This document shows positions 55,476-61,618 of a DNA stretch of 64,000 nt, piece by piece. Below the pieces are notes generated by a model that was given only the letters and a program-made list of their open reading frames with translations, did not search any database and had not been told where the DNA came from. This DNA is from an uncultured Bacteroidales bacterium (GTDB lineage: Bacteria; Bacteroidota; Bacteroidia; Bacteroidales; F082): NCBI GenBank assembly GCA_905234765.1, contig CAJOIF010000019.1:13610-77609 (forward strand). The letters are read 5' to 3'. The position numbers and the translations under genes were made by a program. The stretch's first letter is position 1. Each line of letters starts with the position of its first letter.

Positions 55476-55503
55476 TGGTTTTGGGCAATTGCCCAAAACC
55501 ATT
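55474..55503. terminator. Palindromic terminator between gpmA and the convergent membrane-protein gene
   Basis: A perfect 30-bp palindrome with TGGTTTTGGGCAA arms includes part of the gpmA stop codon and touches the stop of the minus-strand gene. T-rich flanks suit both directions. Confidence 0.8.
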
Positions 55504-56737
55504 ATTTCTTTTTTCTATATTTCAGAATAACAACGAGATACGCCACGGCAACGATGATGAGCAGCAGGGTGCTGACGGCGCGGAAACCTTGGTTGGTGTC
55601 GTGGAACCATTGGCTGTAGTCGAATGATTCGTTGACGAGGCTAGAGAAGTCGTAGATGGCTGAAAAGATGGTCAGGCAGGTCAGGAAGGTGAGGAACTTG
55701 TTGGTTTTTTCCTCAGCGAGCTGGCCTCGTTTCTCCATTTCTTTGCTGATCATCCGATAGAGTTGCTCGTTGTCTTGTTGTGTGTCGAGGCTTTTCTCCA
55801 AAGCATTATTGACCAAGTCAGGTAGGAAGTTGTATGAAATCGAGCTGAAGCTGTAGTCCTGTTCAAACTGGTCGAGTTGTTCTTCCAAGATTTCCACGTC
55901 GACGGTGCGCTTGCGGTAGCAGAGGTTGACCTTGTAGAGGAACACTTTGCGGAAGAGCTGGTAGATATAGATTTTGCCGAAATAGTCTTCCTTCCAGTTG
56001 TTGACAACCCATTCGGGTGTGTCGATGGAAAGCATAGTGAAGGTGTCCAACAAGGCCAGCCCTTTCCAGCCGTTGAAGACGGAGATGCTATGGTCGGACA
56101 TGATACCTTGATAATACTCTTTGCTGTTCATTCCCAATGAGTTGGGTGTATGTTTGGCCAGTGTTCCAGCATCGAAGAGCAAGTAGTCCACATTATCGTT
56201 TTCCAAAGGCTCGGCAAGCGAGATAGCTTGAAACAGCTTGAACTTGTTGCCAGGTTCAATCAGTTGGCAGAGGTTGCCTTGAAGGGTGAGATGGCTTTGG
56301 GTGAGTGTATTATAGATGTCAATAATAGGTTGCAGGGCGGTCTGGGCGAAGTCGGCTTGTAACTCGTTGTAACGTCCGCAGTTGCGGAGGGCGTTGAGGC
56401 AACGGGTCATCAGGTTGAAGTCGGTTTTCTCGAAGTGGATTTCAACGGCAAACAATGTCAGATTGAACGGGGCGCTCCATAGATGCAGGCAGTCGAGCAC
56501 AAACTCAGCTACCTCAGTATCGGAGAATCGTAGCATGCAGGGCTTGCCGATGGCGCGGTCGTGGCGCACCATGTCTTTTGTCATGAAGGAGGCAAATTCA
56601 GGGAAATAGTAGTTCGACAGCTCTTCGCGGTCGGCATCGGAATAACACGCTTGGATCCAGCCTTCGGGGACACGGTTTTTGAGGGATTGCTTGGCGGAGA
56701 AGTAGCCACAGAGGCAAACGGTATTGTTGACCAGCAT
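55502..56737 (-). CDS. Unknown protein with CorA-like C-terminal membrane pair, divergent from the STAND gene
   Basis: A 411-residue protein of no family I recognise. The first 300 residues are soluble mixed alpha/beta (ACYSDADREELSNYYFPEFA, NLTLFAVEIHFEKTDF). A long helix (about 275-345, with LEEQLDQFEQDYSF and MEKRGQLAEEK) leads into two membrane helices (about 345-366 and 386-406) separated by a 20-residue loop, and the end is basic (KYRKKK). This resembles the CorA channel plan, but there is no GMN motif. It is divergent from the HEPN/STAND ATPase with back-to-back promoters, so the two may be one module, for example sensor and membrane effector. Confidence 0.6.
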   Translation of the reverse strand: MLVNNTVCLCGYFSAKQSLKNRVPEGWIQACYSDADREELSNYYFPEFASFMTKDMVRHDRAIGKPCMLRFSDTEVAEFVLDCLHLWSAPFNLTLFAVEIHFEKTDFNLMTRCLNALRNCGRYNELQADFAQTALQPIIDIYNTLTQSHLTLQGNLCQLIEPGNKFKLFQAISLAEPLENDNVDYLLFDAGTLAKHTPNSLGMNSKEYYQGIMSDHSISVFNGWKGLALLDTFTMLSIDTPEWVVNNWKEDYFGKIYIYQLFRKVFLYKVNLCYRKRTVDVEILEEQLDQFEQDYSFSSISYNFLPDLVNNALEKSLDTQQDNEQLYRMISKEMEKRGQLAEEKTNKFLTFLTCLTIFSAIYDFSSLVNESFDYSQWFHDTNQGFRAVSTLLLIIVAVAYLVVILKYRKKK

Positions 56738-56762
56738 AACAGTTCGTTTTTCAAATCGTTGG

Positions 56763-56819
56763 CAAAGTTAGCAAATCTTTGGTTCATTTTAAGGTTATGC
56801 GGAAAAAATGGTATCTTTG
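56763..56819. promoter_or_regulatory. Divergent promoters of the STAND/membrane-protein pair
   Basis: Minus-strand TAACTTTG (56763-56770) serves the membrane protein. Plus-strand TATCTTTG (56812-56819) serves the STAND gene and leaves a leader of only about 8 nt. Confidence 0.7.
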
Positions 56820-56833
56820 CCAAAATTTCGTCC

Positions 56834-59800
56834 ATGAACTATCGGAACTTTCCTTTCACTTTGGCGCATCCCTTGGAGCAGTATGAGGCCCAAAAAGCGG
56901 CAGGCGTCTATTCAAAGGCCATGAACTATGCGCTTGATTTTTTCGAGATTTCGACCCAATACCTTTCCGTAGTGCTGTTAGGACTGATTCGTGAGCATTA
57001 CGAACCGCAAACGGCCAATGCCCATGTCGGTTTTGTGGTAGGGAAAATCGATACCAAACGTCCGCTTTCGTTCGGCGACTGGGCCAATGACATCTTGCCG
57101 CGCACGGCACAAGCGGCGCGTGAACTCATTCCCGACGAGCCATTGACACAAGCGGTGTCGGCCTTGAGCAGCAAGAAACGCAACCTGCTCCTTGGCGGCA
57201 AGAAAGAGGCCAGCATTGTGCAGATTCGCAATGAGTACAAAGGCCACAGCACTACTTTGGCCGAGAGCATCTACATGAATGTGCTTGACGAATTGGAGCC
57301 GAGAATGCAGGAAATGGTGGGGGCATTGGCACCGTTAGTGGAGTATGTGGAGCAGGCGGAGAATGGTCATTTGTTCATTATGCACAATGGCGAGAAGAAA
57401 GCCGACCTGTATCCCGTAGTTCATGCGGATGAAAACGGATATGTGTATGTCTTCCAGTCGCTTAAGGACGAAGAAGTGGCCTTTATCTCGTCGGACGAGC
57501 ATGCCGTCACGATGATTACCGACAAGTTCAATCCCGACTTCGACCAATGGATGCAACGCCTCGTGCCGTCGTTCGACATCGCAAAGGAAGCCAACTGGGA
57601 AGAGCTTCGCGAGCAGATGCGTGAGTATTCTTCCGAGTATTTGCGACATATGTATTCAGAGAAGAAATACAACCAGGAGTTGTTTGTAGAGCGAGAACAA
57701 CTGGGGCGTGCTTTTGTCACTTTCCGCACTTCCGACAGCCGTTTTCTTCCTTTGCCGGGCGATGCGGGGCAAGGCAAGACTACCCAGCTCTGCCACTGGA
57801 CCGAGCAGCTGCTCCATTCCGATGACGGGGTGCTTACTTTTGCCAGTACCGAGTTTGCTACGGGCAATTTGGACCAAAAACTGAGAGACATTTTCGGGTT
57901 GTCATACAAAAAGAGAATGCAACAGTTCTTGTTGGTACTCAACGAGAAAGCCGTGGCAGCAGGTCAACAAATCATCATTTTCTTTGACGCTTTGAACGAG
58001 GTGCTGACTTATCCTGGAACCCCGATGGGAGAAAGCAGTCCCTTGGCTCTTTATAAGGACATTTACGCTCTGTTCGGGATGCATGAACTGACGGCGGTAC
58101 GCATCATCTTCACTTGCCGTAACTATACCTGGCAGAACGAGTTGCGTCCCGAACAGAAGCATCAAGATATGAGTTTGTTCTGTCGAATTGGGGAGGAGGA
58201 GATTGCCGTGAGAAGCTTCACCGACGAGGAGACAGAACGCGCTTATGGCATCTACCACGAGTTGTATCAGATGGAGACACCCTTTGGCCAGTTGGACAGA
58301 AAGAATGTCATCAGAATCAAGAACCCATTGATTCTCAAGATTGTATGTACCAACTATTTGGGAAAGGAACTGCCGACTGAAAACAAAAACTATACTTCGG
58401 TGGCCTTGTTCGAAAAGATGATTGACGACATCCAGCACTCCTACGCGGGTAACCGTCAGATGCAGATCCTGTTTGGCATGGCCGAGGTCTTTTTGCAGGA
58501 TTATGAGAGTGGAAAGGCCCAGGATTCCTTGCTTTTGGACGACTTGAAGAAGGCTCGATTTGCACCGGATTCGCCGTTGCACAAGGTGGCCAACCTGGTC
58601 TATAACGACAAAGGCACGACCATCGCTTTTGAGGAACTGCTCAACAAACCCGAGCGTCCCGTACTGCGCCTCATCAAGGACGAGAAGGTGCAGTTCATCT
58701 ACGAACGTTTCTTGGAGTATATGCTTGCCTTGGTGTATTTCCGTAGGGAGACAGAGGGCAGGGAAGAAGCCATCACGGCGGAGCGCATTGCCGAAACGAT
58801 GAAAGGCGCAGCCCTCAACGAAGTCTTCATGTGCTCGTTGCGCAATGTGCTCATCATGGATTATATGCGCACGGGCAATCCGCAAACCATTATCGACTTG
58901 GCTGGTGACTACAGCGACAATTTCGAAATCCTTACCCTCGTCAGCGACCTGATGAACACCCTTGTGCTTGAGAACTACGAAGCCCAGCTCTTTCCCTTGC
59001 TGCAAGTGCTGTTCACCCATATCAACGATGACCAAAAGAGCAAGGTGGACGAGTACAACCGCGTGTGGAAAGTCATCGAAAAGAACAAGGCCGACGACGA
59101 AACCATCCGAAAATACAACGAACTCTCCGAGTCCATCTTGCCGTTGATGAACCGGAAACGTCTTGCGACAGGCACTTTAATTAATGGTGTGCTGTTCACC
59201 GACTACCACAACGAGAGTTTATACCAAACCGACCCTTATCAGCTGCTTGACACCATCATGGACGACCCGATGATGGAGATTCGTGATAACGCCTCGCTGA
59301 TGGTTTACTACGCTTCCAACAAGACGCACACCAACAGCTATACACCACTGCGTGAGAACATTACGCGGCAAATCGTGCGACATATGTACGACTACATCAA
59401 CGCCACACCTTTGGTAGGCTTGGCCAAGTCGAAGCGCAGAAAACGGGTGATGACCTTCCTTGAGGCGGGCACACGCATCAATGTTTTGCTCATCATCGAC
59501 AAGGTGCTGGAAGGTAAAAACGATGGCGATAGAACAGAAATAAGTCTGATTTTCAATGATATAACAAAAGTGGCCAAACATTTGACGGGCAACTTTACTC
59601 TCATCCGTCTGTTGTTGCCGTTCATCCAAATCGTGATGCGCCGCCAGTTCCTCTTCCAGTCGGACTATGTCAACAATGTCATTGAGTATCAGACTTTCTG
59701 GGAAGATGATGTGGTGCCGAAAGAGAGCGCGGATGGTGCCTGGTGTCGTGCCGACCTGGCCACTGCCGCGTCCTTTGCCTTCCTTTGCTCAAAACAAGGT

Positions 59801-60808
59801 CAGCCCGATGCACCGACATCGGAGGAGTTTAGGCAGTTCATTCCGAAGATCGTTTCTGCTTACCGTACAGGTGACAGCCTCAGTTATCTGACCCTTGAGC
59901 GCATCCTCATCATCGCGGGCGTGGTTGACTATGCCAACGTGCAGCCCGTCATCCAGGAGTTGCGCAGCGGTAGCATTAACGATAGCCCTTGGTTCGACTA
60001 TTCGCAAATGTCGTTCATTTACGTGCTCTACCAACTTGGCTTGAAGATGCCCGAACTGCCGCAAGAGGTAGCCGATATGTTGGAAGAGTGGTGCATCGAC
60101 TGGACGCTGCGCTGCCGAGGCTGGTTCAAGGGGCACAACAGTCACAAAGCCAACTCGAAGCAGCTTTACAAGCGCAATGTGATGACATGGTACGCCATGG
60201 TCTACTGCGCCCGTCACGGCGACGAGCGCGACCCATCGGAGCAAAGCGTCATGGGCTTCCGCAAACTCGTCAACCAAGCTATTGAGACCTGCGACAAGGA
60301 GCTGTTGGTGCATCTGTTGAACAATATTTCCGAGCTTGTCAGCGACTCGGGCTACATTTACACCTCGCTCGACCTCTTGGAAAGCGTGATGAAACAAATT
60401 CCTTCGCAAGCCATTTTGGATGAGTTTGAACAGAATGCCAATCCGCGCTATGCTGAAACCCAAGAATCCATTATTACATTGATTGGCAAGATTTTAGGTA
60501 CGGCTAAAAACTACTTCCCGCTGCAAGTCAATAGTTTCCTGACCAAAGACATCATCAACCTGCCTTTCCCGGGCATCGACAAATACAAGGACGAAATACT
60601 CGGTTACAATCCTGGCGGCGAGCGTCTCTCCGACTTGTTTACACACAAGTTTGGTAACGCATTGATTTATACTTTGATACATGAAGAAGCGGTGGACGAT
60701 GTCGCCGTCAATTCCTTAAAGGCTGCGAGCAAGTCGTCGGGCAGCTACAAGTGGTTTGAGGAGGTCGTCAAAGTCACGCTTAACAAGATGTTTAACCTAC
60801 GATTATAA
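56834..60808 (+). CDS. Large STAND/NACHT-type ATPase with HEPN-like N-terminal domain
   Basis: A 1324-residue signalling ATPase. Residues 15-165 are helical with the conserved LSFGDWANDI (78-87) and an R-N-x4-H motif (R132 to H138, IRNEYKGH), the Rx4-6H pattern of HEPN ribonucleases. Residues 170-300 form a beta-containing linker domain. The NTPase has Walker A GDAGQGKTT (309-317), Walker B IIIFFDALNEV (D385) and an arginine-sensor-like IIFTCRNY. After a winged-helix-like part comes a long helical-repeat region (about 700-1324), the usual sensor arm. The start is ATG 56834, as a longer upstream frame precedes the promoter. Defence against phage is the best guess; it is not a family I can name. 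Confidence 0.75.
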   Translation: MNYRNFPFTLAHPLEQYEAQKAAGVYSKAMNYALDFFEISTQYLSVVLLGLIREHYEPQTANAHVGFVVGKIDTKRPLSFGDWANDILPRTAQAARELIPDEPLTQAVSALSSKKRNLLLGGKKEASIVQIRNEYKGHSTTLAESIYMNVLDELEPRMQEMVGALAPLVEYVEQAENGHLFIMHNGEKKADLYPVVHADENGYVYVFQSLKDEEVAFISSDEHAVTMITDKFNPDFDQWMQRLVPSFDIAKEANWEELREQMREYSSEYLRHMYSEKKYNQELFVEREQLGRAFVTFRTSDSRFLPLPGDAGQGKTTQLCHWTEQLLHSDDGVLTFASTEFATGNLDQKLRDIFGLSYKKRMQQFLLVLNEKAVAAGQQIIIFFDALNEVLTYPGTPMGESSPLALYKDIYALFGMHELTAVRIIFTCRNYTWQNELRPEQKHQDMSLFCRIGEEEIAVRSFTDEETERAYGIYHELYQMETPFGQLDRKNVIRIKNPLILKIVCTNYLGKELPTENKNYTSVALFEKMIDDIQHSYAGNRQMQILFGMAEVFLQDYESGKAQDSLLLDDLKKARFAPDSPLHKVANLVYNDKGTTIAFEELLNKPERPVLRLIKDEKVQFIYERFLEYMLALVYFRRETEGREEAITAERIAETMKGAALNEVFMCSLRNVLIMDYMRTGNPQTIIDLAGDYSDNFEILTLVSDLMNTLVLENYEAQLFPLLQVLFTHINDDQKSKVDEYNRVWKVIEKNKADDETIRKYNELSESILPLMNRKRLATGTLINGVLFTDYHNESLYQTDPYQLLDTIMDDPMMEIRDNASLMVYYASNKTHTNSYTPLRENITRQIVRHMYDYINATPLVGLAKSKRRKRVMTFLEAGTRINVLLIIDKVLEGKNDGDRTEISLIFNDITKVAKHLTGNFTLIRLLLPFIQIVMRRQFLFQSDYVNNVIEYQTFWEDDVVPKESADGAWCRADLATAASFAFLCSKQGQPDAPTSEEFRQFIPKIVSAYRTGDSLSYLTLERILIIAGVVDYANVQPVIQELRSGSINDSPWFDYSQMSFIYVLYQLGLKMPELPQEVADMLEEWCIDWTLRCRGWFKGHNSHKANSKQLYKRNVMTWYAMVYCARHGDERDPSEQSVMGFRKLVNQAIETCDKELLVHLLNNISELVSDSGYIYTSLDLLESVMKQIPSQAILDEFEQNANPRYAETQESIITLIGKILGTAKNYFPLQVNSFLTKDIINLPFPGIDKYKDEILGYNPGGERLSDLFTHKFGNALIYTLIHEEAVDDVAVNSLKAASKSSGSYKWFEEVVKVTLNKMFNLRL

Positions 60809-60811
60809 CAA

Positions 60812-61618
60812 ATGTTCCACAATTGTAAACTAACCTTTATTTTTGCAATCGTTTTAACCATTAGTGCATGTTCCTGCAATAAAGACATGAATACGACCTC
60901 AAACAATCATCCGCTTATCGTTGCCCATCGTGGAGGGGCTGGTCTTGGCATGGAGAACAGTCTTTCGTGCATTGAAAAAGGTATTGCTGCGGGTGCCGAT
61001 ATGATTGAAATTGACATTCACCTCACCGCCGACGGTCGAATCGTGGTGTGCCATGACCGCACCATTAACCGCACTACCAACGGCAAGGGTAGAATCGCCA
61101 AAATGACGCTGACAGAAATCCAACAGTTTCGACTGCTTGATAAAGGCCGAAAGCCTTCGAACGAGACCTTGCCTACCCTTGAGCAGGTGTTGGAATTGTG
61201 TAAAGGCCGTTGTCGTATGCTGATTGAGATAAAAAAAAGAAAAGGCTTATATGAAGGCATTGAGGTTTTGGCCGACAGCCTTGTCAAACAATACGGGATG
61301 CAGGATCAAGTAGTGTTTCAGTCGTTCAACGACGAGGTGCTGTTCAAATTACACGAAATCGACCCAACGTTGCGGCTTGAGAAGCTGTTGTTCTACAAGT
61401 CTGGTGGTCATGTCTTTGATGGCGCGTTCGCTTCGTATTCCGCCGAGAAATATGATTTTATAGCCTCGTTCAACATCTGCAAATTCTTTGTCACGAAGCG
61501 TTTCATCCGCAAGATGCATGAGGCAGGTAAGGAAGTCAAGGTGTGGACGGTCAATAAGCCGAAGAAGACACTGGCTGGTGTCGACGGCATCATCACCAAT
61601 CGCCCGGACTTGTTTTAG
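60812..61618 (+). CDS. Glycerophosphodiester phosphodiesterase, lipoprotein
   Basis: Cleaves glycerophosphodiesters from phospholipid breakdown to glycerol-3-phosphate and an alcohol. The 268 residues start with a lipoprotein-like signal (FAIVLTISACSC) and carry the GDPD motifs LIVAHRGGAG, GMENSL, EIDIHLTADGRIVVCHD and KTLAGVDGIITNRP. The start is 3 bp after the STAND gene's stop, so it may be co-transcribed with it, though no functional link is obvious. Its stop overlaps the convergent barrel gene by 4 bp. Confidence 0.93.
   Translation: MFHNCKLTFIFAIVLTISACSCNKDMNTTSNNHPLIVAHRGGAGLGMENSLSCIEKGIAAGADMIEIDIHLTADGRIVVCHDRTINRTTNGKGRIAKMTLTEIQQFRLLDKGRKPSNETLPTLEQVLELCKGRCRMLIEIKKRKGLYEGIEVLADSLVKQYGMQDQVVFQSFNDEVLFKLHEIDPTLRLEKLLFYKSGGHVFDGAFASYSAEKYDFIASFNICKFFVTKRFIRKMHEAGKEVKVWTVNKPKKTLAGVDGIITNRPDLF

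Follow-up and report, generated by a model that had tools for sequence, protein, structure and literature searches.

A conserved three-gene unit of a HEPN-STAND protein, a CorA-like membrane protein, and a GDPD-family protein in Bacteroidales

Composition and linkage of the unit

The window analyzed here, a 64,000-nucleotide stretch of contig CAJOIF010000019.1 from an uncultured Bacteroidales bacterium, contains a conserved unit of three genes that is about 6.1 kb in size. These genes encode a CorA-like membrane protein (MEM), a large protein in which a HEPN domain is joined to a STAND ATPase (HEPN-STAND), and a member of the glycerophosphodiester phosphodiesterase (GDPD) family. MEM (411 aa) lies on the minus strand (55502..56737) and HEPN-STAND (1324 aa, ATG start) on the plus strand (56834..60808), with a divergent intergenic region of 96 bp between the two start codons (56738..56833). 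The GDPD gene (60812..61618, plus strand, 268 aa) starts 3 bp past the stop of HEPN-STAND. An initial annotation of this DNA had placed the first two open reading frames (ORF), back to back, at precisely these positions, and had taken the pair for a candidate defense module. Because the adjacent GDPD gene belongs to the unit, we moved its end to 61618.

A genome scan yielded 62 loci, all titled Bacteroidales or as families and genera placed there, titles that we take to belong to this order. Five loci (L044, L052, L055, L056, and L062) break off right where the match to the STAND gene ends, and linkage of GDPD was counted over the remaining 57 plus the window. In 57 of these 58 loci, a GDPD gene lies immediately downstream of the STAND gene on the same strand, L022 being counted with only the start of the gene, at a contig end; L017 has none. 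With mechanically assigned starts, the two genes overlap in 32 loci, are spaced by ≤30 nt in 18 and by 31–80 nt in six, and lie 242 nt apart in one (L061). MEM is found nearby in 50/62 loci, including one fragment at a contig end (L019). When the window is included and this fragment excluded, MEM is divergent in 38 loci, co-directional in 11 (eight upstream and three downstream), and convergent in one. Linkage of GDPD is thus stricter than that of MEM, and the two-gene reading was rejected; co-occurrence of the pair stood, as part of a trio.

Six of the 12 loci lacking MEM (L031, L041, L048, L054, L060, and L061) have upstream another protein, ALT, which is probably a remote MEM homologue as judged by profile alignment (hhalign 63%); the draft genomes of these six gave no MEM match. 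As for the others, MEM of L053 is on a different contig (L103), and a MEM match is absent from the draft genomes of L001, L011, and L022, of which the L011 and L022 loci start shortly before the STAND gene. Truncation affects the 3' side of L044 and L062, where MEM sits in L059 and L034. L034 and L062 are probably a single gene, because they come from one assembly and cover complementary parts of the query (residues 141–1320 and 4–143, respectively).

Pairwise distances of the three proteins, computed over 44 loci including the window (33 after a 90% identity cut), are correlated (r 0.91–0.95, permutation p 0.0001). The trio is not often reshuffled, and shared descent alone would give the same correlation. 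Taken together, these findings show that MEM, HEPN-STAND, and GDPD form one conserved unit.

Insertion of the three genes as a unit is seen in the genus of L013, where 4/19 genomes carry the module. A flanking core gene is present in all 19 genomes, and it directly adjoins clpC, in convergent orientation, in 12 of the 15 module-less genomes (clpC is outside the fetched flank in the other three). In the four carriers, MEM adjoins this core gene. With sites matched by contig coordinates, exactly MEM, STAND, and GDPD lie between the core gene and clpC in L013, L014, L015, and L036, and the unit is therefore without an integrase or transposase gene. At E ≤ 1e-30, carriers amount to 3/393 genomes in the order, 2/150 in the family, and 4/19, 4/61, and 1/60 in three genera. 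Each sample includes the carrier around which it was drawn, and its genomes are of unstated completeness. The module is patchy, even within a genus. It also occurs in the record of a named strain, Phocaeicola plebeius DSM 17135 (L035). The module is directly testable, being sharply bounded, matched by an empty site within one genus, and on record for a named strain.

Features of the three proteins

HEPN-STAND consists of a HEPN domain (about residues 1–171; 56834..57346), a small beta domain, a NACHT-type ATPase with the region following it (about residues 291–660; 57704..58813), and a long C-terminal region that is a putative sensor (residues 661–1324; 58814..60805), all on the plus strand. 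The mechanical ORF starts further upstream, at a GTG (56561). As the initial annotation had noted, the protein contains an R-x5-H motif (R132/H138 in RNEYKGH; codons 57227–57229 and 57245–57247), GDAGQGKTT, and FFDALNE. Residues of all three were compared in an alignment of 184 rows, which comprise the window protein (P0001), 63 ORFs from the 62 loci, and 120 database hits. R132, N133, and H138 are identical in the 182/182 aligned sequences having the column, as are K315 of Walker A (G309–T316; 57758–57781) in 181/181 and D385 of Walker B (D385–E389; 57986–58000) in 182/182. The 62 loci came from a pattern search in which one of the two motifs, HEPN or P-loop, sufficed; the 120 database hits came from a similarity search with P0001 instead. 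Conservation of the HEPN and Walker residues is beyond chance.

That the N-terminal domain is HEPN-like, as first proposed, is borne out by its helical-bundle fold and by the HEPN superfamily motif R-x4-6-H, present as RN-x4-H in every row with the column. It resembles HEPN toxins of the MntA-HepT type. With an invariant motif on a HEPN-like fold, we infer that this domain is a candidate RNase.

The claim of a NACHT-like ATPase likewise holds up. The PADLOC model for Avs2 matches the window protein at 6.8e-13 over residues 248–639, and the NCBIfam model (NF041813) scores 34.4 bits against a curated cut-off of 1000, over residues 252–507 only. Pfam NACHT (PF05729) gives 14.6 bits on P0001 alone, below its 26.7-bit cut-off, and matches 7/17 members of the set A1 at E ≤ 1e-3, with L100 at 42 bits, above the cut-off. 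By P-loop and by a domain profile reached through relatives, with Walker A and B invariant, the protein is classified as a STAND/NACHT NTPase on sequence grounds. The C-terminal region is conserved like the remainder of the protein (mean majority fraction 0.61–0.67). Sequence searches against solved structures gave no useful match for P0001, A1, P0002 (the window MEM), or A3. In one locus (L030:1831-5886), the STAND gene is in two ORFs (323 and 1010 aa), reflecting either decay or an assembly error.

The 411-aa MEM has a confidently predicted fold (pLDDT 92.4), in which an alpha/beta N-terminal domain is followed by a long helix that forms the stalk and by a hairpin of helices at the C terminus (helices 319–372 and 381–410 in the model). 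The predicted membrane hairpin (55523..55702, minus strand) comprises TM1 (about residues 346–366) and TM2 (387–405). The long helix and two C-terminal membrane segments of CorA type that had been claimed are thus recovered as an architecture; by hydropathy, only the second segment passes the threshold in the window protein, and TM1 is positioned from relatives that pass it there. S359 and D363 in TM1, and R386 just ahead of TM2, are invariant across 78 MEM rows. The first-ranked structure matches, which are weak, are CorA/ZntB metal channels, which share this order of parts with MEM. Unlike these channels, MEMs lack a GMN motif (0/50 full-length proteins have it in the last 90 residues) and a match to Pfam CorA (0/78 members at E ≤ 0.01), and a magnesium transporter identity was rejected on these grounds. 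Two PADLOC CorA models, which we take to represent the type III CRISPR effector, do match relatives of MEM at E ≤ 0.01, PDLC01043 in 49/78 (best 4.1e-9) and PDLC01174 in 32/78 (best 2e-10), and ALT matches a CorA-like model at 8.8e-13. These matches span mostly the stalk and membrane part, and P0002 and the L020 copy have none. The predicted model and these relatives support a CorA-like membrane architecture for MEM.

The third protein matches the GDPD profile (PF03009) at 7.4e-40 (138 bits) and aligns to structure 2pz0. The active-site residues H39, R40, E48, N49, H81, E139, and K141 are retained in 56/56 copies. Read by eye, the window protein starts with a lipoprotein-like signal (LTISAC). 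As assessed by crude tests, the N terminus is hydrophobic in 54/57 adjacent GDPDs (exceptions L010, L050, and L058), 13 of which have a lipobox-like motif. Because of these hydrophobic N termini, the catalytic domain is likely to be exported or anchored in most copies.

A related GDPD was found at E ≤ 1e-30 in 13 of 247 sampled Bacteroidales genomes, two of which carry the module (G002 and G211), the copies in the other 11 being stand-alone within the short stretches seen. The 11 stand-alone GDPDs fall in one clade (100/100), outside which are the module GDPDs, except for the divergent copy of G211 (L089/L100); GDPDs from ALT-type modules form one clade (96/91). A module-type GDPD with no STAND gene within 13.5 kb (L101:5253-6128), in a genome that also has a full module (L033), is either a remnant or a free copy. 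In L025, another GDPD-like ORF follows downstream.

Possible functions

We infer, with a probability of roughly 0.55, that the three genes are an accessory module that is most likely an immune or self-surveillance system of the abortive-infection type. Both HEPN and STAND are domain types characteristic of conflict systems (PMC3710099, PMC12169576). Two observations bear on an immune role. Phage and plasmid collections gave no match and IMG/VR no confirmed relative, which also led us to reject a phage- or plasmid-borne element. Moreover, the proximity to other defense genes that the initial annotation had suggested checking is not shown, as each PADLOC family matches at most 2 of 101 neighbor proteins (E ≤ 1e-5; 25 of 161 matched families listed; no control). 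These neighbors were picked by nearness from 296 (families once, ≥130 aa), with four of 103 omitted and two added by hand. None of the outcomes named in that annotation as speaking against a defense module (absence of co-occurrence, absence of a HEPN fold, a housekeeping assignment) came about.

Parts of this design are known. An N-terminal HEPN domain joined to a STAND NTPase has been reported in bacteria (Anantharaman et al. 2013, PMC3710099), the same combination as here, whereas the present family is from Bacteroidales and differs in its C-terminal region and its partner genes; the main text of that article mentions neither CorA nor GDPD. Bacterial NACHT proteins are described as single chains that combine a sensor, a switch, and an effector (PMC12169576), and the window protein appears to follow their order, with the effector first, the switch in the middle, and the sensor at the C terminus. 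It had been stated that neither protein could be matched to a named system, which was nearly right, apart from the weak kinship to Avs2 (AVAST type 2) and the MEM relatives matching PADLOC CorA-like models. The STAND core aligns to Avs2 models, but far below the NCBIfam cut-off and within the core, and the window system has a HEPN effector and two faithful partner genes. Searches of PMC full texts (most subscription papers and bioRxiv preprints being outside this scope) turned up no description of the combination of HEPN-STAND, CorA-like protein, and GDPD, and the terms GDPD, glycerophosph-, and CorA are absent from the main text on DefensePredictor (PMC13092281). HEPN-STAND fusions and CorA effectors being already known, what is new, as far as the PMC full texts searched show, is their union with GDPD. 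The joining of HEPN, CorA-like, and phosphodiesterase parts under a STAND switch may reflect either kinship with the CorA systems of type III CRISPR or convergence.

If the module is an immune or self-surveillance system, the C-terminal region of HEPN-STAND would bind a trigger derived from an invader or from stress, ATP-driven oligomerization of the STAND core would bring HEPN domains together, and the HEPN dimer would cut RNA, stopping growth. MEM would form the membrane arm, which the activated receptor or its products would open, or might alternatively anchor the receptor at the inner membrane. GDPD would work from the envelope side, with glycerophosphodiesters or lipid head groups as its substrates, and would either be a co-effector or hold the membrane arm in check. 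A more specific version, which we offer tentatively and hold to be doubtful, is a two-compartment STAND receptor combining a cytosolic HEPN RNase with an inner-membrane CorA-family pore, the effect of which is executed or restrained by an envelope-side phosphodiesterase of GDPD type. The module would then be related to the type III CRISPR CorA branch but sense proteins, and its GDPD would be the first, within the literature searched, to have an immune role.

A different view, in our opinion rather unlikely, is surveillance of envelope stress or phospholipid damage, in which the extracytoplasmic GDPD and MEM would report lipid breakdown and STAND-HEPN would slow translation during repair. It would explain why GDPD is the tightest-linked partner and fits the hydrophobic, sometimes lipobox-bearing, N termini of most adjacent GDPDs, the occurrence of stand-alone relatives in 11/247 genomes, the lack of matches on phages, plasmids, and viral contigs, and the fact that no defense-island link is shown. 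It sits poorly with a module that is very patchy within a genus and inserted at a site empty in relatives, and with the association of HEPN and STAND with conflict (PMC3710099, PMC12169576).

We regard as quite improbable that the module corresponds to the type III CRISPR CorA branch, some members of which are partnered by the HEPN RNase Csm6-2, with a protein as its trigger. The activated receptor would then give rise to a small phosphodiester signal, the CorA-like pore would open in response, and GDPD would remove the signal, as NrN does with SAM-AMP. In Bacteroides fragilis type III CRISPR (Cmr), immunity by the CorA-family protein requires a phosphodiesterase (PMC10600005), and most type III CRISPR CorA proteins have a SAM-AMP-degrading partner, e.g. 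NrN or a DEDD phosphodiesterase (PMC10600005, PMC11229360), another clade without degrading enzymes being paired or fused with Csm6-2 (PMC11229360). The module similarly pairs a CorA-like membrane protein, with relatives matching CorA-like defense models, with a phosphodiesterase. However, it is STAND-driven, has no nucleotide cyclase or polymerase and no shown link to CRISPR (Cas10 is not among the 25 families listed of the 161 matched by the 101 neighbors), the CorA-model matches lie mostly in the stalk and membrane part, and GDPD is another phosphodiesterase family whose mostly export-type N terminus would set it apart from a cytosolic signal.

Still less credit is due to a toxin-antitoxin-like or plasmid/transposon exclusion unit for which phages are not the target. 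The resemblance to MntA-HepT-type toxins would suit it, but toxin-antitoxin loci do not usually consist of a 1324-aa STAND receptor, a membrane protein, and a phosphodiesterase, and the mapped unit is exactly three genes, with no small antitoxin-like gene. Finally, insertion of a STAND/MEM pair beside a resident GDPD gene, which the stand-alone relatives and the carrier with a second, solo GDPD (L101) might suggest, is largely refuted by the mapped empty site, which has no GDPD between core gene and clpC, by the 234/247 sampled genomes without such a GDPD, and by the position of module GDPDs outside the stand-alone clade, bar the G211 copy.

If the immune reading is true, it ties HEPN-STAND receptors and the CorA-like effectors of Bacteroides type III CRISPR to GDPD, an enzyme unlinked to immunity in the literature searched. 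The case further suggests gene fidelity and empty sites as a way to find systems beyond known defense islands.

Relatives and genomic surroundings

HEPN-STAND has a sister branch of 43 proteins (39–87% to L100), one of them named Prolixibacter bellariivorans. The L100 locus encodes MEM, a divergent HEPN-NACHT protein with an additional N-terminal SAM domain (L100:5737-10152; PF00536, 1.4e-11), GDPD, and a protein of 191 aa that separates MEM from STAND (L100:5134-5709). Its GDPD clusters with stand-alone copies, implying either two separate recruitments of GDPD or an exchange. The gene context of this branch rests on one locus, because a family-level search around G211 found only G211 itself (1/11). 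Beyond L100, a phylum-wide search with a divergent profile gave only STAND-core similarity, in 7/395 genomes; one such protein (L114) has a restriction-enzyme-like N terminus.

Distant MEM homologues occur outside the HEPN-STAND module (L110:1019-2338, L111:2703-4019, and L112:5115-8246). The homologue adjoins a TPR-SpoIIE protein in L110, is fused to one in L112, and has a partner that is TPR-like by eye in L111. An nSTAND1-WD40 gene is complete in L112, and L111 has, by eye, an apparent tail of one. These loci share with the module a MEM-like protein, but contain an extra protein of ∼205 aa (without a Pfam match in L110), which resembles in appearance the 191-aa protein of L100, and no HEPN-NACHT or GDPD in the fetched stretches. 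Because distant relatives accompany such proteins, it is plausible that the MEM family is a general membrane partner of STAND switches.

In the window, both flanks are ordinary. To the left are an OstA/LptA-like gene and a gene of the histidine-phosphatase family (by eye, a phosphoglycerate mutase), and to the right is an Omp85-family gene. The 96-bp gap contains two TAnnTTTG elements, one for each divergent gene (56763–56770, minus strand, and 56812–56819, plus strand). This motif, which resembles the Bacteroidota -7 promoter element, has 51 sites in the window versus 29.75 expected, a number reached in 0/100 shuffles, and the excess is in line with a Bacteroidota promoter signature. It is found on both strands in 26/38 divergent loci, a count over a wide region and without control that we did not use as evidence. 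Near the module in L023, L024 (1838-6491), L025, L028, L044, L057, L059 (7904-9919), and L062 are kinase-AAA, PP2C, FHA/zinc-ribbon, and multi-AAA genes, which may form a second conflict cassette.

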